From: Acidimicrobiia bacterium
GTDB lineage: Bacteria > Actinomycetota > Acidimicrobiia > IMCC26256 > JAMXLJ01
Assembly (NCBI GenBank): GCA_035651955.1
Contig: DASRES010000041.1
Span: forward strand, 1 to 54,993
Direction of reading: 5' to 3'
DNA length: 54,993 bases
Positions 9,953 through 47,166 of the stretch are shown piece by piece. The position numbers and the translations under genes were made by a program. The notes beneath the pieces are model-generated. The model was not told the origin of the DNA. It was given only the letters and a program-made list of their open reading frames with translations, and searched no databases. The stretch's first letter is position 1. Every line of letters starts with the position of its first letter.

Positions 9953-11122
9953 ATGGCGATCAGCTTTCCGGACGGGTTCCTGTGGGGGACGGCCACGGCC
10001 GCGCACCAGGTCGAGGGCGGGAACTGGAACAACGACTGGTGGGAGTTCGAGCACCGGGACGGGACGCCCTGCGTCGAGGTGTCGGGCGACGCGGTCGACC
10101 ACTTCCATCGCTACCCGTCGGACCTCGCGATGGTCGCGGGTCTCGGGTTCAACGCGTACCGCTTCTCGATCGAGTGGTCGCGCATCGAGCCCGAGGAGGG
10201 CGAGTTCTCGCGCGCCGCGCTCGACCACTACCGCCGGATGATGGCGGCGTGTCTCGAGCACGGGATGGTCCCCGTCGTCACGTTCCATCACTTCTCGACG
10301 CCGCGGTGGGCCGCGACGGGCGACACGTGGGCCGATCCCGTCACGGCCGAGCGGTTCGCGCGGTTCTGCGAGCGTGCGGTCGACGCGGTCGGCGATCTCG
10401 TCGGCATCGCGTGCACGATCAACGAGCCGAACATCGTCGCGTTGATGGGCTACATGGTCGGCGTGTTCCCGCCCGGCCGCCAGGACATCGACCAGTACGC
10501 GCGCTCGAACGACGTGCTGATCGACGCCCACAAGCGCGCGGTCGACGCGCTCAAGGCGGGTCCGGGCGACTTCCCCGTCGGCATCACGATCGCCATGGGC
10601 GACTGGGACGCGCCCGAGGGCGCCGAGGACACGCTGGCGCGGATCCGTCACCAGCACGAGGGGATCTACCTCGAGGCCGCGCGCGGCGACGACTTCGTCG
10701 GCGTGCAGGCGTACTCGCGCACGCGGCTCGGTGCCGACGGCATGCCGATCGGGCCCGAGGACGGCGTCGAGGTGCTCGACATGGGATACGAGTACTGGCC
10801 GCAGGCGCTCGAGGTCGCAGTCCGGCACGCGGCGGACGTCGCGGGCGTGCCCGTCTACGTGACCGAGAACGGCATCGGCACGACCGACGACGAGCAGCGC
10901 ATCCGGTACGTGAGGTCCGCGCTCGAGGGGCTCGGCCGTTGCCTGGCCGACGGGCTCGACGTGCGGGGCTACTTCTACTGGTCCGCGATGGACAACTTCG
11001 AGTGGGCCCTCGGCTACAAGCCGCAGTTCGGTTTGATCGCCGTCGACCGCACCACACAGCTCCGCACCATGAAGCCGAGCGCCCACTGGCTCGGCGCGAT
11101 CGCCCGCACCAACGTTCTGTGA
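9953..11122 (+). CDS. glycoside hydrolase family 1 beta-glycosidase
   Basis: A 389-residue cytoplasmic enzyme without a signal peptide. The GH1 N-terminal motif 'FLWGTATAAHQVEGG' is present. The acid/base Glu158 is in 'TINEPN' and the nucleophile Glu305 in 'YVTENG'; 'FSIEWSRIEPEEG' is also typical. It should hydrolyse beta-glucosides or related beta-glycosides with retention; the sugar specificity cannot be read. At under 400 residues it is shorter than the usual 440-470. The stop codon lies inside a long hairpin (11113-11163). It is divergent from trpC. Confidence 0.9.
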   Translation: MAISFPDGFLWGTATAAHQVEGGNWNNDWWEFEHRDGTPCVEVSGDAVDHFHRYPSDLAMVAGLGFNAYRFSIEWSRIEPEEGEFSRAALDHYRRMMAACLEHGMVPVVTFHHFSTPRWAATGDTWADPVTAERFARFCERAVDAVGDLVGIACTINEPNIVALMGYMVGVFPPGRQDIDQYARSNDVLIDAHKRAVDALKAGPGDFPVGITIAMGDWDAPEGAEDTLARIRHQHEGIYLEAARGDDFVGVQAYSRTRLGADGMPIGPEDGVEVLDMGYEYWPQALEVAVRHAADVAGVPVYVTENGIGTTDDEQRIRYVRSALEGLGRCLADGLDVRGYFYWSAMDNFEWALGYKPQFGLIAVDRTTQLRTMKPSAHWLGAIARTNVL

Positions 11123-11163
11123 AGGCTCATGCACACGATGTGTGTCTGAGGCTTCACAGAACG
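11113..11163 (+). terminator. long hairpin overlapping the GH1 stop, shared family copy 1
   Basis: About 24 paired positions flank a GAT loop centred on 11138, with mismatches at 125/151 and 130/146. The outer arm is cgttctgtgaag (11113-11124), pairing with 11152-11163. No U-tract follows. Nearly the same sequence occurs at 27095-27143, also directly after a plus-strand gene. A terminator or mRNA 3'-end stabiliser is the likely role. Confidence 0.55.
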
Positions 11164-13458: not shown

Positions 13459-14337
13459 CTACGACGACGAACGACGCATGGACAGTTCGAGGAGGCGCAC
13501 GCGTGCCTCGCCGTCGTCCCAGCGCGCGGTCAGCTCGGCCGGGGGCTCGACCTCCCGGCGCGCGTAGCCGAGCGCGAGCCACGGGAAGCCCGCCGGCGTC
13601 ACGCTCGTGAGCGAGCCGACGACCTTGCCGGCGTCCGTGACGAGCTCCGCGCCGCGCGGAGGCTCGGGGCCGTCGACGAGCTCGACACGGCGCAGGAACC
13701 GGTTGACGTGACCGCGCGTGTCGATGCGGCACACGAGCTCCTGGCCGATGAAGCACCCCTTCGTGAACGAGACCGCGTCGACGTCGAGGAACGCCTCCTG
13801 CGCGATCGTCCGGTCGTCGAGGTCGAGCCCCTGCCGCGGGACACCCTCGTCGATCCGGACGGCCTCGTACTCGTCTGCGCTCGCGACCTCCGCGTCGCCG
13901 CGCGCCTCGTCGACGGCGCGCTGCGGTCCGATCACGTCGAACCCGCGCGGCCTCGCGATGTCCAGCACTGCGGCGCCCCTGGCATGGGGCCGCGCGACGT
14001 CGCCGTCCCCGGTGAGCACCGACAGGCAGCCGAACTCTTCGCTGCGGTCGGCGACGTCCGCCTTCACTCGGATCCGGTACCGGTTCAGCGATGCCGCGAG
14101 ACGCTCGCCGTAGCCGGGCTCGGTGTCGAGCCACAGCTCGTCCTCGCCAGCGCGGTACAGCCGGATGTCGACGTCGAGCTTCCCCTGCGGGGTGAGCAGC
14201 AGCGTGTGCGTCCACTCGCCGACGGGCACGCGCAGCACGTCCTGCGACAGCAGGTTCTGCAGGAACGTCCTCGCGTCAGGTCCCTCGACGACGACCAACC
14301 CGCGGTCCGAGCGATCGACCATCCGCGCGGTGCTCAT
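13459..14337 (-). CDS. ygfZ: YgfZ/GcvT-type folate-binding protein
   Basis: A 292-residue protein with the YgfZ hallmark 'KGCFIGQE' (usual K-G-C-Y-x-G-Q-E), where the Cys is needed for function. The N-terminus resembles the aminomethyltransferase fold ('EGPDARTFLQNLLSQDV'). YgfZ-type proteins assist iron-sulfur cluster assembly or repair with folate; this is family knowledge. The ATG at 14337 is placed by the SD GAGGGAG, five bases away, inside the repeated leader cassette 14338-14391. It lies 61 bases after trpE on the same strand. It ends 8 bases from the convergent kinase gene. Confidence 0.85.
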   Translation of the reverse strand: MSTARMVDRSDRGLVVVEGPDARTFLQNLLSQDVLRVPVGEWTHTLLLTPQGKLDVDIRLYRAGEDELWLDTEPGYGERLAASLNRYRIRVKADVADRSEEFGCLSVLTGDGDVARPHARGAAVLDIARPRGFDVIGPQRAVDEARGDAEVASADEYEAVRIDEGVPRQGLDLDDRTIAQEAFLDVDAVSFTKGCFIGQELVCRIDTRGHVNRFLRRVELVDGPEPPRGAELVTDAGKVVGSLTSVTPAGFPWLALGYARREVEPPAELTARWDDGEARVRLLELSMRRSSS

Positions 14338-14391
14338 GGCTCCCTCGGACCGGGCCGTCCCGCGCTCCACGCACGGCCCGGCTTCGTCCGC
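14338..14391 (-). repeat. hairpin/RBS leader cassette, copy before ygfZ
   Basis: Read on the minus strand it runs gcggacgaagccgggccgt, a 10-base arm within a hairpin, then a closing acggcccggt arm, then gagggagcc and the ygfZ ATG. It matches the tandem cassette at 34131-34250 over nearly its full length. The differences in the inner stem keep pairing (GTGC/GCAC there, GCGT/GCGC here). It fills the gap between the trpE stop and the ygfZ start. Confidence 0.8.
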
Positions 14392-14398
14392 GCCGTGC

Positions 14399-15937
14399 TC
14401 ACGGCAGCGCCGCCTCCTCCGCACGAGCGAAGTCGCGCGACGCCGCGGCTGCGGTGAGGAGCGCGCGCGCCTTGTTGTGGCACTCGAGGTCCTCGAGCTC
14501 CGGGTCGGAGTCGACGACGATCCCGGCACCCGCCTCGACGCTCGCCTGCCCGTCGCGCCACACCATCGTGCGGATCGTGATCGCGGTGTCGACGTTCCCC
14601 GAGAAGTCCACGTACCCGACGACTCCCGCGTACGGGCCGCGCTTCGTCGGCTCGAGCTCGTCGATGATCTCCATCGCCCGCACCTTCGGGGCGCCGCTCA
14701 TCGTTCCCGCGGGAAAGGTCGCGCGCAGCACGTCGACCGCGTTCTTTCCTTCGGCGAGCTCACCGGTGACCTGGCTCGTCATGTGCATGACGTGCGAGTA
14801 CCGCTCGAGCACCATGAGCTCCTCGACACGTTCGGTGCCGAAGCGCACGACGCGCCCGACGTCGTTGCGTGCGAGGTCGACGAGCATGACGTGCTCGGCA
14901 CGCTCCTTCGGATGTTCGACGAGCTCGGCCGCCATGCGCCGGTCGTCCTCCTCGGTGCGGCCACGACGCCGCGTGCCGGCGATCGGACGGCTGATCACAC
15001 GCCCGTCACGCACCTGCACCATCGTCTCGGGCGACGAGCCGACGAGCGTCGCCTCGTGGTGCCGCAAGAGGTACATGTACGGCGACGGGTTGACCTGGCG
15101 CAGCACGCGGTAGACGTCGAACGGGTCGTACTCGCCCTCGAGGTCGAAGCGCTGCGCGAGCACGACCTGGAAGATGTCGCCCGCGAGGATGTACTCGCGG
15201 GCGGCCTCGACGACGTCCGCGAACTGCGCCGGCGTCATCGTCGAGCGGAAGGGCGGGAGCTCGCTGAGCGGCTCCGGCGGCGGCGCGGACGGGAGATACG
15301 GCAACGGGCGCGCGAGCTCGTCGACGAGCGCGTCGAGCCGCGCGCAGGCGCGCTCGTACGCGTTCGTCAGCGTCGCGACGTCGGCGCCGTCCGGCACGAA
15401 CACGTTCTCGATCAGGTACAGCCGCTGCCGGAAGTGGTCGAACGCGGTCACGTGACCCGTGAGCGACAGCACGGCGTCCGGCGTGCCGAGGTCGTCGACG
15501 GGCACGCTCGGGAGACGCTCGACCTCGCGCACGACGTCGTAGCCCAGATAGCCGACGACGCCGCCGTGGAACGGCGGCAGGTCCGCGAGCTGCGGCGCTC
15601 GATAGCGCGCGAGCAACGCCTCCAGCGCGCACAGCGCGCCGCGGTCGGTGGGGACGTCGCGGGGAGGCGCGACCGCGCCGTGCTCGAACGTGACGTCGCG
15701 ACCACGCACGACCATCGTCAACGCGGGGTCGCGTCCCATGAACGAGAACCGGCCCCAGCGTTGCGCGTGCTCGACCGACTCGAGCAGGAACCCTTCGCCG
15801 TCGCCGACCAGCTTCGAGTACGCGGACACGGGGGTCTCGAGATCGGCGAGCACCTCGCGCCACACCGGTACGACGGTGTGGTCGGCGGCGAGGCTCAGGA
15901 ACTCGTCGAGCGACGGCTTCGAGCGGGAGACGGCCAT
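14399..15937 (-). CDS. trpE: anthranilate synthase component I
   Basis: A 512-residue chorismate-utilising enzyme. The C-terminal catalytic domain shows 'SPSPYMYLLRH' (read as NPSPYMY), 'GSSPETMVQV', 'RPIAGTRRRG', 'EHVMLVDLARNDVGRV' and 'FPAGTMSGAPKVRAMEIIDELE'. The latter two are the Mg2+ and chorismate site motifs of TrpE. It makes anthranilate with a TrpG glutaminase not in this window. The ATG at 15937 is 10 bases past the hisI stop; an ATG overlapping the hisI stop is out of frame. A stretch upstream of 15937 stays open but lies in hisI. PabB is the main alternative, but length and pathway context favour TrpE. Confidence 0.88.
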   Translation of the reverse strand: MAVSRSKPSLDEFLSLAADHTVVPVWREVLADLETPVSAYSKLVGDGEGFLLESVEHAQRWGRFSFMGRDPALTMVVRGRDVTFEHGAVAPPRDVPTDRGALCALEALLARYRAPQLADLPPFHGGVVGYLGYDVVREVERLPSVPVDDLGTPDAVLSLTGHVTAFDHFRQRLYLIENVFVPDGADVATLTNAYERACARLDALVDELARPLPYLPSAPPPEPLSELPPFRSTMTPAQFADVVEAAREYILAGDIFQVVLAQRFDLEGEYDPFDVYRVLRQVNPSPYMYLLRHHEATLVGSSPETMVQVRDGRVISRPIAGTRRRGRTEEDDRRMAAELVEHPKERAEHVMLVDLARNDVGRVVRFGTERVEELMVLERYSHVMHMTSQVTGELAEGKNAVDVLRATFPAGTMSGAPKVRAMEIIDELEPTKRGPYAGVVGYVDFSGNVDTAITIRTMVWRDGQASVEAGAGIVVDSDPELEDLECHNKARALLTAAAASRDFARAEEAALP

Positions 15938-27083: not shown

Positions 27084-27094
27084 CCACCGCGTCC

Positions 27095-27143
27095 GTTCTG
27101 TGAAGCGTCATGCACACGATGTGTGCTTGACGCTTCACGGAAC
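27095..27143 (+). terminator. long hairpin after small coiled-coil gene, shared family copy 2
   Basis: Paired arms of 23 positions with one T/T mismatch and one G-T pair flank a GAT loop centred on 27119. It is nearly the same as 11113-11163. The bases that differ (GCG/CGC here at 27105-27107 and 27131-27133) restore pairing. It starts 12 bases after the stop and has no U-tract. Confidence 0.55.
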
Positions 27144-27171
27144 ACCGCTGCGAGATCTCCGCAGACGCGAA

Positions 27172-34060: not shown

Positions 34061-34130
34061 CGCGCTGTCAGCTTGCCCGGGCGCGCCGGGCGCCCGCTAC
34101 GTTCGCCGCCCGAGCGGAGCGGGAGCGAAC

Positions 34131-34190
34131 GAGTGCGGACGAAGCCGGGCCGTGTGCGGAGCACGGGACGGCCCGGCCCGAGGGAGCCAC
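34131..34190 (+). repeat. hairpin/RBS leader cassette, tandem copy 1
   Basis: A 60-base unit repeated exactly once more at 34191-34250; only the last base differs (C versus T). Within it gccgggccgt pairs with acggcccggc (10 bp), and an inner GTGC/GCAC pairs around GGA. It ends in gagggagcca. In this copy the ending is CCACG rather than CCATG, so it lacks a start codon. Confidence 0.85.
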
Positions 34191-34250
34191 GAGTGCGGAC
34201 GAAGCCGGGCCGTGTGCGGAGCACGGGACGGCCCGGCCCGAGGGAGCCAT
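34191..34250 (+). repeat. hairpin/RBS leader cassette, tandem copy 2
   Basis: Second 60-base unit, directly before the acyl-CoA synthetase gene. It keeps the same hairpin and the SD-like gagggag, and ends in an ATG (34249-34251). The cassette matches the one before ygfZ (14338-14391). Confidence 0.85.
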
Positions 34251-34254
34251 GTAA
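34249..34254 (+). promoter_or_regulatory. ATG-TAA start-stop element
   Basis: The cassette's ATG is followed at once by TAA. The real gene starts two bases further on at GTG 34257 in another frame. Ribosomes placed by gagggag could thus meet a minimal one-codon reading frame before the real start. Confidence 0.45.
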
Positions 34255-34256
34255 TC

Positions 34257-35873
34257 GTGCAGTTCAACCTCGCGGACCTGTTCGAGATCGTCGTCGACAC
34301 CGTCCCCGACCGCGAGGCGCTCGTCTGCGGTGACCGCCGGCTGACGTACCGCGAGCTCGAGGCGCGCGTGAACCGGCTGGCGCACCATCTCGCCGCGTCG
34401 GGCGTCGGCGCCGGCGATCACGTCGCGCTGTACCTCTACAACGGCACCGAGTACCTCGAGGCGATGCTCGCCGCGTACAAGGTGCGAGCCGTCCCCATCA
34501 ACGTCAACTACCGGTACGTCGAGGAGGAGCTCCGTTACCTGCTCGACGACTGCGACGCCGTCGCGGTCGTGTTCCACTGCGAGTTCGCGCCGAAGCTCGT
34601 CGCGATCCGCGAACAGCTCCCGAACCTCCGCGCGTTCGTCGCGGTCGACGACGGCAGCGACACGCACGACGCCGCGCGCACGCTCGGTGCCACCGACTAC
34701 GAGGATGCGCTCGCGCACGCGTCACCCGCGCGCGACTTCGCACCTCGCTCGGCCGACGACCTCTACATCCTCTACACCGGCGGCACGACGGGGATGCCCA
34801 AGGGCGTGATGTGGCGCCACGAGGACATCTTCTTCGGCGCCTTCGGCGGCGGCGGGATCGGCAACGAGGTGTCGACGCCGGAGGAGCTCGCCGACCGCGC
34901 CCGCGACGCGCGCATCACCCGTTGTCTCCCCGCGTGCCCGTTCATGCACGGGACCGCGCACTGGATGGCGTTCTCCACGCTGTACACGGGCGGCGCGGTG
35001 GTGATCTCGCCCGAGCACCGGCTCGATCCGGTCAGGCTGTGGGAGCTCGTCGCGCGTGAGCGCGTGAACTTTCTCGTCATCGTGGGCGACGCGTTCGCGC
35101 GGCCGCTCGCCGAGGCGCTCGACCGGCTACCACCCGGCGTGGACGTGTCGGGTTGCTCCGTCATCCTCAGTGGAGGTGCGATCCTGTCGCCGTCCGTCAA
35201 GCGCGCGCTGGCGGAGAAGCTGCCCGGTTCGCTGATCGTCGACGGGTACGGATCGTCGGAGGCGGGTGGGCAGGGCCAGTCCGTCACCGTCGCCGGCGCG
35301 GACGTGAGCACGCAGCCGCGCTTCATGGTGAACGACGAGACCACCGTTCTCGACGACGATCTCCGTCCCGCGGCGCCCGGCGTCGTCGGGAAGCTGGCGC
35401 GCCGCGGTCGCATCCCGCTCGGCTACTACCGCGATCCCGAGAAGTCCGCGGCGACGTTCCCGGTCGTCGACGGCGTGCGCTGGTCGGTCCCCGGTGACCA
35501 CGCGCGCATCGAGCCCGACGGGTCGATCACGCTGCTCGGCCGCGGGTCGGTGTCGATCAACACCGGCGGCGAGAAGGTCTACCCCGAGGAGGTCGAGGCC
35601 GCGCTCAAGGGGCACGCGGCGGTGTTCGACGCCGTCGTGGTCGGGGTGCCGGACGAGCGCTGGGGCGAGCGAGTTGTGGCGCTCGTGCAACCCCGACCCG
35701 GTCGTGAACCGACGTTCGACGAGCTCGACGCGCACGTCCGCCGCCACGTCGCGGGCTACAAGGTGCCGCGTCAGGTTCTGCTCGTGGACGCGATCGTCCG
35801 GTCACCGTCGGGCAAGCCCGACTACCGCTGGGGCAAGCAGACCGCGAAGGAGCGTCTCGGCGTCGGCGCGTGA
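34257..35873 (+). CDS. acyl-CoA synthetase / AMP-dependent ligase
   Basis: A 538-residue adenylate-forming enzyme that activates a carboxylic acid to acyl-AMP and then acyl-CoA. Motifs: the P-loop 'YTGGTTGMPKGV', 'DGYGSSEAGGQ' (acid-binding/A5), 'DHARIEPDGSI', 'GRGSVSINTGGEKVYPEEVE' (A8 hinge) and the C-terminal catalytic Lys in 'SPSGKPDYRWGK'. A chain-length or substrate class cannot be told; FadD-like long or medium chain is plausible. GTG 34257 is the first in-frame start after the leader cassettes, with GGAG ten bases upstream. Confidence 0.9.
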   Translation: MQFNLADLFEIVVDTVPDREALVCGDRRLTYRELEARVNRLAHHLAASGVGAGDHVALYLYNGTEYLEAMLAAYKVRAVPINVNYRYVEEELRYLLDDCDAVAVVFHCEFAPKLVAIREQLPNLRAFVAVDDGSDTHDAARTLGATDYEDALAHASPARDFAPRSADDLYILYTGGTTGMPKGVMWRHEDIFFGAFGGGGIGNEVSTPEELADRARDARITRCLPACPFMHGTAHWMAFSTLYTGGAVVISPEHRLDPVRLWELVARERVNFLVIVGDAFARPLAEALDRLPPGVDVSGCSVILSGGAILSPSVKRALAEKLPGSLIVDGYGSSEAGGQGQSVTVAGADVSTQPRFMVNDETTVLDDDLRPAAPGVVGKLARRGRIPLGYYRDPEKSAATFPVVDGVRWSVPGDHARIEPDGSITLLGRGSVSINTGGEKVYPEEVEAALKGHAAVFDAVVVGVPDERWGERVVALVQPRPGREPTFDELDAHVRRHVAGYKVPRQVLLVDAIVRSPSGKPDYRWGKQTAKERLGVGA

Positions 35874-40264: not shown

Positions 40265-42589
40265 ATGACCCGCTCGCCCATCCGTGTGCTCGTCGCGGTC
40301 CTCGTGACCGTCGCGACCGCGCTGGTCGTGGTCCCCAACCCCGCGGGCGCGTCACCGGCGACGCCGCGCGCGGCGCGCCCCTCGCCCTCGTCGGCGACGG
40401 CGCGCTACCGCACGGACCGTGTGCTCGTGAAGTTCAAGCCCGGCGTGAGCGCCCAGCAGCAGGCGCGAAGCCTCCATGGCGCTCGAGCACGCACCGTCGC
40501 GCGCGGGAGCGATGTGCAGACGGTGTCCGTCCCGAACGGTGACGTCATGGGCGTGATTGCCCACCTGAAAGCGGACCCGAGCGTCACGCTCGCGCAACCG
40601 GACTACCTCTACCACGCAACCGAGACGATCCCGAACGATCCCTACTACGCGCAGCAATGGGGTCCCGCGAAGATCGCTGCGCCGGAATCGTGGGACGTCG
40701 CGCGCGGGTCGGCCGCGAGCAACGCGCCCGTCGTCGCCGTGATCGACAGCGGGGTCGACTACGTGCACCCCGACCTCGCCACCAACATGTGGACGAACCC
40801 CGGCGGCATCGGCTCCTGTCGCGCGGGAACGCACGGCTATGACGCGCTGGCACAAGAGGCGGGCTCCCCGTACTACGGCCTCGACCCGTGCATCCCGTTC
40901 GACGACGACGGCCACGGCACCCACGTCTCAGGGATCATCGGCGCCGCGGGCAACAACGGAACGGGGGTCTCCGGCGTCGAGTGGCAAGCGCGCATCATGG
41001 CGGTCAAGTTCCTCGACAGCTCGGGATCGGGTGACGACGTCGCCGCGATCGCCGCGATCAACTGGGTGGTCGACGCGAAGAACCACGGCGTCAACGTGCG
41101 CGTCATCAACGCGTCGTGGGGCGGCAGCGGCGACGACACCGCGCTCGACAACGCGATCCAGAGCGCGAACGCGGCCGGCATCCTCTTCGTCGCCGCCGCG
41201 GGGAACGGGGACAACTCGGGAACGCCGATCGACGTCGACACGACGCCTCAGTACCCGTGCTCCACGTCGGGAGTGCTGTGCGTCGCGTCGAGCGACCCGT
41301 ACGACGGGCTGTCGTGGTTCTCGAACTACGGCGCGAGCACGGTCGCGCTCGCCGCGCCAGGCGAGTGCATCCTGTCCACGGTCCCCACCGAGTTCCCCTT
41401 CGGCGAGAACGATCCGTACTGCGGGACGCCACCGCGCAACTACGCGTACCTCGACGGCACGTCGATGGCGACACCGTTCGTCTCGGGCACCGCGGCACTC
41501 ATCGCAGCGGCCGCGCCGAGCGCGGACGCGACGCAGCTGCGTGTCGACATGGTGAACAGCGTCGACCCGAGCAGCTCGCTGTCGTCCAAGGTCTCGAGCG
41601 GCGGCCGCCTGGATGTGTGCAAGGCGCTCGCTCAGGCTGGCGTCTTCACCCCGCCACAGAGTCTTCGTGCGACGCAGTCGAACGGCAGCGCGCTCATCGC
41701 GTGGAACGCGCCCTGCAGCGGCGCGACCGACTACGCGATCAGCCAGAGCGGGGGTGGCAGTACGACGACAGCATCGTCGACGACAACCCTTTCGTCACTG
41801 ACGACGAACGCGGCGTACACCGTGACGGTCACCGCACGGATGAGCGGCAGCCCACGTGCTTCGTCGACCGTGCTCGTCACCCCGCTGAGCGGTGGATACG
41901 AGCTCGACGGGTTTGGTGGGTTGCATCCGGTCGCGGCGAGTGGTGGGACCGCACCGCCGACAACCAGTGGCGGGCCGTACTGGCGAACGTGGAACATCGC
42001 GCGCGGCGTCGCGGTGCTCCCGAGCGGCGCGGGGGGCTACGTCCTCGACGGCTATGGCGGACTGCACCCGTTCGGTGTCGGAACACAGACCCCGCCGCCG
42101 GGCGCGCGCGTGAGTGGCTACTGGCCCGGTTGGGACATCGCGCGCGGCGTCGCGTTCCTGCCCGACGGAACGGGCGGCTACGTCGTCGACGGCTACGGCG
42201 GGCTCCACCCGTTCGCGGTCGGCAACGCGCCGATGCCGCCCAACCTGTCGACGCCGAACTACTGGCCGGGCTGGGACATCGTGCGGGGCATCGCGACGGT
42301 CCCGAGCGGCTCACTCTCGCTGACGTCCGCCGGCGGGCTGGTGCTCGACGGGTACGGCGGCATCCACGGCTTTTCCCTCGGCGGGGCAACGCCCAGCGCA
42401 TCGAACGGCCCGTACTGGAAGCCGTGGGACATCGCACGCGGCATCACGGTTTCACACGACGGGACGGGCGGATACGTGGGCGACGGCTGGGGCGGTGTGC
42501 ACCCGTTCCAGCTCACACAGCCTGCGCCGCCACTCCAGACCGGGCAGTACTGGCACGGCTGGGACATCTCGCGCGGGCTCGCGCTGTGA
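40265..42589 (+). CDS. secreted subtilase with FN3-like domain and C-terminal W/G repeats
   Basis: A 774-residue secreted protease. A signal peptide (about 1-30) ends near 'NPAGASPA'. An I9-type propeptide follows ('RVLVKFKPGVSAQQQARSL'). The S8 domain has Asp161 ('AVIDSGVDY'), His217 ('DDGHGTHVSG') and Ser400 ('GTSMATPFVSG'), with oxyanion Asn in 'AAAGNGDNSG'. After about residue 455 comes a fibronectin type III-like domain ('PQSLRATQSNGSALIAWNAP'), then five repeats (bases 41891-42586) that also occur in the protein at 46282-47166. The repeats probably bind surfaces or substrate; no known family was recognised. Confidence 0.9.
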   Translation: MTRSPIRVLVAVLVTVATALVVVPNPAGASPATPRAARPSPSSATARYRTDRVLVKFKPGVSAQQQARSLHGARARTVARGSDVQTVSVPNGDVMGVIAHLKADPSVTLAQPDYLYHATETIPNDPYYAQQWGPAKIAAPESWDVARGSAASNAPVVAVIDSGVDYVHPDLATNMWTNPGGIGSCRAGTHGYDALAQEAGSPYYGLDPCIPFDDDGHGTHVSGIIGAAGNNGTGVSGVEWQARIMAVKFLDSSGSGDDVAAIAAINWVVDAKNHGVNVRVINASWGGSGDDTALDNAIQSANAAGILFVAAAGNGDNSGTPIDVDTTPQYPCSTSGVLCVASSDPYDGLSWFSNYGASTVALAAPGECILSTVPTEFPFGENDPYCGTPPRNYAYLDGTSMATPFVSGTAALIAAAAPSADATQLRVDMVNSVDPSSSLSSKVSSGGRLDVCKALAQAGVFTPPQSLRATQSNGSALIAWNAPCSGATDYAISQSGGGSTTTASSTTTLSSLTTNAAYTVTVTARMSGSPRASSTVLVTPLSGGYELDGFGGLHPVAASGGTAPPTTSGGPYWRTWNIARGVAVLPSGAGGYVLDGYGGLHPFGVGTQTPPPGARVSGYWPGWDIARGVAFLPDGTGGYVVDGYGGLHPFAVGNAPMPPNLSTPNYWPGWDIVRGIATVPSGSLSLTSAGGLVLDGYGGIHGFSLGGATPSASNGPYWKPWDIARGITVSHDGTGGYVGDGWGGVHPFQLTQPAPPLQTGQYWHGWDISRGLAL
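41891..42586 (+). repeat. five coding W/G repeats in the subtilase C-terminus
   Basis: Units begin at 41891, 42032, 42173, 42332 and 42467 (47, 47, 53, 45 and ~40 residues). The pattern is G-G-Y-V-x-D-G-[YFW]-G-G-[LIV]-H-P-F, a variable Pro/Thr/Gly linker, then Y-W-x-x-W-[DN]-I-x-R-G-[VIL]-x-x-x-P/H-x-G. The nucleotide sequence has diverged between units, so the array is old rather than freshly duplicated. Confidence 0.85.
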
Positions 42590-46281: not shown

Positions 46282-47166
46282 ATGCGTCGGTTCTGGTCAT
46301 GGTTGGTCGGTTCGAGTGTGGTGGTCGCGCTCGCGACGTTCGGGATCGGGTCGGTCGGCACGGCCACGGCCGGTGCAGCCCAGGGTGGGACGGTGCGCGC
46401 CGCGGCGACGAGCCCGTGCACGCCGCCATTCCCGAACCAGCCGTACTGGCAGGGCTGGGACATCGCGACGGGCGTCGCGCTGCTCCACGACGGAACCTGC
46501 CGCGGGTACGTCCTCGACGGCTGGGGCGGCTTCCATCCGTTCGGCAACCCACCGCCGCCCGCGCTGTTCGGCGGCAAGCACGCCGTGGGACAAGTCGTTG
46601 CGCACAACATGGCGATCGAGGGCAGCGACGTACTCAACCCGACCAATCCGCCGGTCCGTGGTGCGGTCATCAACACCCACGCCAAGGCCTACCCGTTCGG
46701 AGCGAACGGCGTGACCCCGGTGACCTACGCCACGAACGACCAGTCGTACCTGTACAACGTGCCGACGCGTGCGATCTCGCTCGACCCCGCGCCGGCGGGC
46801 AGCGCGTACAACCTCAACGGCGCGACGATCGACGCGTGGGGCGGGATCCATCCGTTCTCGACCGTGACCGAGACGATCGACACGTGCAACGCGCCCTACT
46901 GGCCAAAGTGGAACATCGTGCGCGGCCTCGCGCTGTTGCCCAACGGCCAGGGCGGCTTCACGCTCGACGGCTGGGGCGGTGTCCATGCGTTCGGCAAGGC
47001 GCAGCTGGCGACGCCACCGGACACGTACTGGGGGCCGTCCTTCGGGCACAAGGCGTGGGACATCGCGCGTGGCGTCGCGATCGACAACAACGGCAACGGC
47101 GTCGTGCTCGACGGCTGGGGCGGGCTGCACCCGTTCACGTACACGATCAACGCCGCAGGGTGCTGA
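46282..47166 (+). CDS. secreted W/G-repeat protein
   Basis: A 294-residue secreted protein. The signal peptide ('FWSWLVGSSVVVALATFGIG', cleaved near 'TAGAAQGG') has GGGAGGGG just upstream of ATG 46282. The whole mature part is made of the same motif found in the subtilase C-terminus: 'PYWQGWDIATGVALL', 'GYVLDGWGGFHPFG', 'DAWGGIHPF', 'YWPKWNIVRGLALLPNGQGG', 'LDGWGGVHAFG', 'KAWDIARGVAI' and 'LDGWGGLHPF'. One central stretch (about residues 95-165) is more divergent. Two Cys near each end could form a disulfide. No catalytic motif is seen. A role in surface attachment or in binding a shared partner with the subtilase is inferred. Confidence 0.8.
   Translation: MRRFWSWLVGSSVVVALATFGIGSVGTATAGAAQGGTVRAAATSPCTPPFPNQPYWQGWDIATGVALLHDGTCRGYVLDGWGGFHPFGNPPPPALFGGKHAVGQVVAHNMAIEGSDVLNPTNPPVRGAVINTHAKAYPFGANGVTPVTYATNDQSYLYNVPTRAISLDPAPAGSAYNLNGATIDAWGGIHPFSTVTETIDTCNAPYWPKWNIVRGLALLPNGQGGFTLDGWGGVHAFGKAQLATPPDTYWGPSFGHKAWDIARGVAIDNNGNGVVLDGWGGLHPFTYTINAAGC

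Follow-up and report, generated by a model that had tools for sequence, protein, structure and literature searches.

A short, apparently mobile hairpin element with a Shine–Dalgarno-like tail at gene junctions in one order of Acidimicrobiia

A repeated unit in a 54,993-nt stretch of an Acidimicrobiia genome (contig DASRES010000041.1; the whole stretch is hereafter called the window) is one of a genuine family of small mobile elements that are structured and sit at gene junctions. We consider it likely that the unit, some 56 nt long, is a mobile but non-autonomous element carried by certain lineages within a single order of Acidimicrobiia, that it bears a Shine–Dalgarno sequence, and that its hairpin is under selection. 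Since the sister species is without it at the same places, it appears as a tiny mobile element able to enter operons and still provide a ribosome-binding place for the following gene.

The window contains three copies (Table 1). Each 56-nt unit consists of GTGCGGACGAA (GCGCGGACGAA in the copy at 14338), a hairpin, and CCGAGGGAGCC; the hairpin has a 10-bp outer stem, a 4-bp inner stem, a GGA loop, and a GGG bulge on its 3' side. The first-pass annotation had described both stems, the GGA, an inner-stem difference between loci, and a G-U pair, all of which we recovered. Its two 60-bp units, at 34131–34190 and 34191–34250, indeed differ only at base 60 (C/T), so copies 1 and 2 are identical across 56 nt. 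The third unit, placed by it at 14338–14391, does lie on the minus strand but extends to 14393. It had also put all three units directly upstream of genes, whereas the 3' neighbor of the first tandem copy is the second copy. The ATG right after gagggagcc, read there as the gene start, has to be given up: this ATG (34249–34251) runs straight into TAA, and the sister-species orthologue (L200), which begins ATGGAGTTCAACC, aligns with that sequence against GTGCAGTTCAACC here. The acyl-CoA ligase therefore very probably starts at GTG 34257. The ACGA repeated around copy 1 is by itself too short for a target duplication. At the third copy, the GTG of a candidate mini-ORF overlaps the upstream stop, and its TGA overlaps the ygfZ ATG by 4 nt.

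Table 1. Element copies, their parts, and neighboring genes in the window
Feature	Position	Strand	Evidence or remark
Element copy 1 (56 nt)	34133..34188	+	Covariance model R1, source genome: 84 bits, E 1.5e-11
Copy 1, make-up			5' GTGCGGACGAA, then hairpin, then 3' CCGAGGGAGCC
Copy 1, hairpin	34144..34177	+	Covariation in 18 source-genome copies and 81 copies from several genomes; copy 2: all parts +60
Copy 1, outer stem	34144-34153/34168-34177		
Copy 1, inner stem	34154-34157/34161-34164		
Copy 1, GGA loop	34158-34160		Copy 2: +60
Copy 1, GGG bulge	34165-34167		Copy 2: +60
Element copy 2 (tandem, period 60)	34193..34248	+	Covariance model R1: 84 bits, E 1.5e-11
GAGGGAG, proposed Shine–Dalgarno sequence from copy 2	34240..34246	+	10 nt 5' of GTG 34257; putative function
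ACGA ahead of copy 1	34129..34132	+	Recurs between copies at 34189-34192; read from the sequence
AMP-binding acyl-CoA ligase, downstream gene	34257..35873	+	Pfam PF00501/PF13193; GTG start from orthologue
Element copy 3 (single)	14338..14393	-	Covariance model R1: 75.8 bits, E 4.7e-10
TGAGCAC, upstream copy of duplicated junction	14395..14401	-	Contains the trpE-like gene's stop (TGA)
TGAGCAC, downstream copy	14330..14336	-	With A 14337, gives ATGA at ygfZ start
Candidate 22-codon mini-ORF spanning copy 3	14334..14402	-	Deduced from the sequence
ygfZ-like gene (GCV_T folate-binding domain), downstream	13459..14337	-	Pfam PF01571
Anthranilate synthase component I (trpE-like), upstream	14402..15886	-	Pfam PF00425/PF04715

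The element is dispersed well beyond the window. In the source genome (4.1 Mb), a covariance model built from 18 copies gave 56 matches at E values up to 1, some 50 of which fell below E 0.05, and the shared sequence sits at about 40 unlinked loci, mostly in narrow intergenic gaps. The count for a two-ended pattern, 15 exact matches against none for the reversed control, is likewise far above chance. Tandem units mostly have periods of 60–67 bp, with pairs of nearly identical units being common. In the sister species, which was the only genome of the same genus searched, the 37 copies found belong to another subfamily (GGACGGAGCTGCGCCC...GGAGGGAGCC). Related forms occur in other families of the order (f2, f5, f9, f12, and f14), and in most of these forms the tail is shorter and ends GCGGAGTCGACC. 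Using a broader model, 12 of 198 genomes of the class matched, all within this order and several with at least 28 copies. Across a phylum sample of 346 genomes, the source genome alone matched, and weak outliers could be missed there because only 16 candidates per genome were scored. A contig scan with the source-genome pattern gave no match. Carriage by phages or plasmids was looked for, with no pattern match in viral contigs and no phage hit; a weak 45-nt match to a Paraburkholderia plasmid was taken as chance. Rfam returned no match above the gathering score in the window, and the literature covered, which excludes subscription papers, yielded no report of it from Acidimicrobiia. Among named records, the short-tailed form occurs in MAGs whose titles read Acidimicrobiia or Actinomycetota and, in one case, Bifidobacterium breve. 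In the latter MAG, four contigs (CAMDCC01 records L160, L162, L163, and L164) carry the element in its Acidimicrobiia form; the Bifidobacterium breve label is probably wrong.

That the unit is mobile or repeatedly copied, as the first-pass annotation had argued, is borne out by these roughly 50 copies together with empty orthologous sites. Orthologous junctions were compared through downstream proteins located in the sister species, which is without the element at both window sites and at about ten more junctions. Empty there are trpE–ygfZ (14338), the acyl-CoA ligase (34131), rpsR, gyrA, rph, rpoZ, a MaoC-like gene, a two-component pair, and others; gene names beyond the Pfam-assigned ygfZ, trpE, and acyl-CoA ligase were read from the proteins and are presumed identities. 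At the acyl-CoA ligase site, the same upstream gene is present in the sister species (69% identity over 396 aa). In the reverse case, about eight sister insertions face empty sites in the source genome, at cydB, menD, relA, L108, a mutase gene, plsY, ribA, and L099. At empty orthologous junctions, the model gives no significant match. Because such junctions are empty reciprocally in both species, the copies are best read as insertions. At some sites there may have been loss in the sister species rather than gain here. For the ygfZ junction, an ancestrally empty site is the likelier state, since the GTGA overlap of the sister species and the ATGA overlap of G002 are both uninterrupted. One insertion that appeared to be shared (L075/L093) was set aside, as it looks like two independent insertions within one gene.

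Selection on structure, also proposed at first pass, is supported by covariation. Among the 18 source-genome copies, 99.2% of pair cells hold standard pairs, with two-sided changes at 6 of 14 pairs. For 81 copies from several genomes, whose alignment was fitted to the model's own structure and is thereby biased in its favor, the corresponding figures are 93.8% and 11 of 14. None of 500 shuffles reached the covariation score, and slid versions of the structure were only 31–51% paired. Across the element family, hardly any variation is seen in the GGA loop, the GGG bulge, or the GGAG-type tail. The hairpin does not stand out by folding energy (z -0.9 to -2.4), which is ordinary for DNA so rich in GC, and a rival structure appears when the 14338 copy is folded together with its flank. 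Support for the predicted hairpin comes from covariation, not from folding energy.

Insertions favor gene junctions, often stop/start overlaps (ATGA/GTGA), and a minority of arrays have flanking direct repeats of 7–10 nt that copy the junction, so that the upstream stop and the downstream start both survive. Flanking repeats scoring at least 7 were found at 10% of source-genome, 23% of sister, and 12% of distant arrays, against 0.4%, 1.8%, and 0.7%, respectively, for mispaired flanks; a clear flanking repeat is absent from most arrays. The clean cases are ygfZ, which reads TGAGCACG-element-ATGAGCACC, and cydB of the sister species, which reads ATGAGCACC-element-ATGAGCACG where the source genome has an ATGA overlap (TCGCCATGAGCACC-R-ATGAGCACG versus the empty AGATGACG). 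At sites that probably had a GTG or TTG start before insertion, an A follows the element, which thus seems to bring ...GAGCCA and to turn TGA into ATGA. Duplication lengths range from 7 to more than 30 nt, unlike those expected from a fixed-stagger transposase. In sister copies L090 and L093, 31–34 nt of the downstream gene start are duplicated, and the downstream copy begins 15–20 nt past the element.

Arrays are biased in strand: of 57 located between same-strand genes, 46 have the sense orientation and 11 are antisense (p 3e-6); 25 further arrays lie between divergent genes and 3 between convergent genes. Start codons were called without regard to the element by a simple home-made codon model trained on identified genes, so the position figures are approximate: among arrays with a co-directional downstream gene, the start of that gene is within 30 nt for 15 of 30 in the source genome, 14 of 25 in the sister species, and 11 of 16 in distant genomes, and where the upstream gene is co-directional, its stop is mostly no more than 30 nt from the array. 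About half of the copies are not near any start codon; some are antisense, and some follow stop codons. The element supplies GAGGGAGCC at its 3' end, in which GAGGGAG is a plausible Shine–Dalgarno sequence. A bridging mini-ORF with an exact 4-nt overlap can be read in 3 of 31 source-genome arrays and 6 of 25 sister arrays, counting single-unit ORFs and leaving out chains across tandem units; the ygfZ copy is among those carrying a short ORF that ends on the downstream ATGA. The first-pass annotation took the unit for a leader supplying a structured ribosome-binding site and suggested a covariance-model search of its own and related genomes. That search returned many copies with compensated stems, but only about half of them near starts; the sense bias at junctions agrees with its leader reading, whereas the half outside 30 nt of a start and the 11 of 57 antisense arrays do not.

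On the preferred reading, the element would insert at gene junctions, with the sense strand favored and DTGA stop/start overlaps or start codons as frequent targets. The clearest cases would have 7–10 nt of the junction copied, such that the upstream gene retains its stop and the downstream gene retains a start. An element ending GAGGGAGCC(A) would bring in a Shine–Dalgarno sequence and, joined to TGA, make an ATG, and in some copies a short ORF may restore 4-nt stop/start coupling. The hairpin would be retained by selection, most likely because copying, by way of single-stranded DNA or RNA, requires it and because it keeps the tail free. Units would then multiply in tandem, mostly at a period of 60–67 bp, and decay. 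A more speculative reading, which we consider decidedly unlikely, is a bacterial SINE-like element, or another element copied through an RNA or single-stranded-DNA hairpin, in which a host enzyme copies the folded strand into DNA nicked at the stop/start TGA. If true, it would give variable target duplications with neither a dedicated transposase nor inverted ends.

Several other explanations were weighed. Tandem pairs of nearly identical units could come from local duplication of ribosome-binding regions without any mobility, an idea to which the roughly 40 unlinked loci and the empty orthologous sites leave practically no credence. Mobility could also be accepted and the covariation attributed to quasi-palindrome correction, that is, template switching between the arms during replication, rather than to structural selection. 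Such correction would yield perfect arms, and the tandem arrays point to replication slippage. However, in a small and non-independent sample, the 7 stem differences between tandem neighbors are all uncompensated, whereas 53% of those separating loci within one genome are compensated. The arms are therefore not corrected in the short term, and we hold this explanation to be unlikely. The contrast fits random decay after insertion combined with selection in the propagating lineages.

The near-invariant GGA loop and the many copies preceding start codons would suit a cis-regulatory RNA leader that defines a regulon, for example a CsrA-type site, with GGA in loop and tail, controlling the translation of many genes. 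CsrA is not expected in most actinobacteria, and csrA (PF02599) is present in both the source genome and the sister species; the source-genome protein is encoded at G000 C55:30565-30717 (L178; E 2.5e-23). However, the genes concerned are housekeeping genes with no relation to one another, some copies lie antisense or behind stop codons, and G042, which is 96% complete with at least 28 copies, gives no csrA hit. As csrA does not track the element and the target genes are not conserved, with sister orthologues lacking the leader, a conserved regulon is hard to sustain, and we regard this possibility as highly improbable. An even smaller probability is given to a REP-type element moved by a RAYT/Y1 HUH transposase acting on a single-stranded DNA hairpin. 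Short dispersed hairpins with conserved foot sequences, compensated stems, and tandem copies would be consistent with it. In a search of the source genome and the sister species for a mobilizing Y1/RAYT enzyme, however, Y1_Tnp (PF01797) was absent from both while five control genomes were positive, and flanking duplications, which Y1 transposition is not expected to give, are present. A MITE or DDE-type element was rejected, as inspection of the aligned copies showed no terminal inverted repeats and the flanking duplications vary in length.

In behavior, the junction element most resembles the mycobacterial MIRUs. According to a 2025 review (PMC12548453) that cites Supply et al. 1997, these appear mobile, have start codons as their insertion sites, and contain an ORF whose coupling to the gene has a spacing of -4 nt; units of 46–101 bp at 41 loci are given in PMC3914561, and both sources, describing Supply et al. 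1997, indicate that MIRU insertion disturbs expression little. The Acidimicrobiia element is likewise short and dispersed over tens of loci, in part as tandem arrays. Insertion at start codons or overlaps is seen at ygfZ, cydB, menD, L078, L108, and the MaoC-like gene but not at many other sites, and the coupled ORF is confined to the minority of arrays counted above. Unlike MIRUs, it resides in another actinobacterial class and has a covarying hairpin with a GGA loop, a purine-rich tail, and many copies at non-overlapping junctions. It is likened to MIRUs by behavior, not by sequence; membership is not claimed, the ORF feature not being general. The first-pass annotation knew of no named element that fits; MIRUs (PMC12548453) offer a precedent for the behavior, sequence relation aside. 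REP/BIME elements with RAYT are also short dispersed hairpins, frequently in tandem, but here there is no Y1 transposase in either genome, and there are junction duplications, a sense bias, and a Shine–Dalgarno-like tail. BOX, RUP, ERIC, and other small bacterial repeats, as far as PMC3049150 and PMC2759123 describe them, are dispersed units without an enzyme of their own; the present element differs from them in size, sequence, and insertion preference, and no terminal inverted repeats were seen.

These results suggest that the lifestyle of MIRUs, in which a tiny repeat enters operons at stop/start junctions while the next gene stays translatable, also exists in another class of actinobacteria. 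The covarying hairpin makes a structural requirement testable, and the reciprocal empty sites of the sister species provide clean before/after pairs for the effect of an inserted leader on translation and coupling. Additionally, the variable duplications and compensated stems constrain any account of how enzyme-less short repeats move.

Two other repeats were observed in the window. A second dispersed repeat, at 11105–11163 and 27094–27152, is palindromic over about 50 bp, with GTTCTGTGAAGC/GCTTCACAGAAC as conserved arms around an inner part that varies; it has 18 pattern matches over two strands (about 14 places) in the source genome, against none for the reversed control, and is possibly a MITE or a bidirectional terminator. 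Furthermore, 41878–42586 and 46421–47136 contain repeated blocks about 141 nt apart that encode GYVLDGWGGLHPFG-like motifs, probably of a repeat protein.
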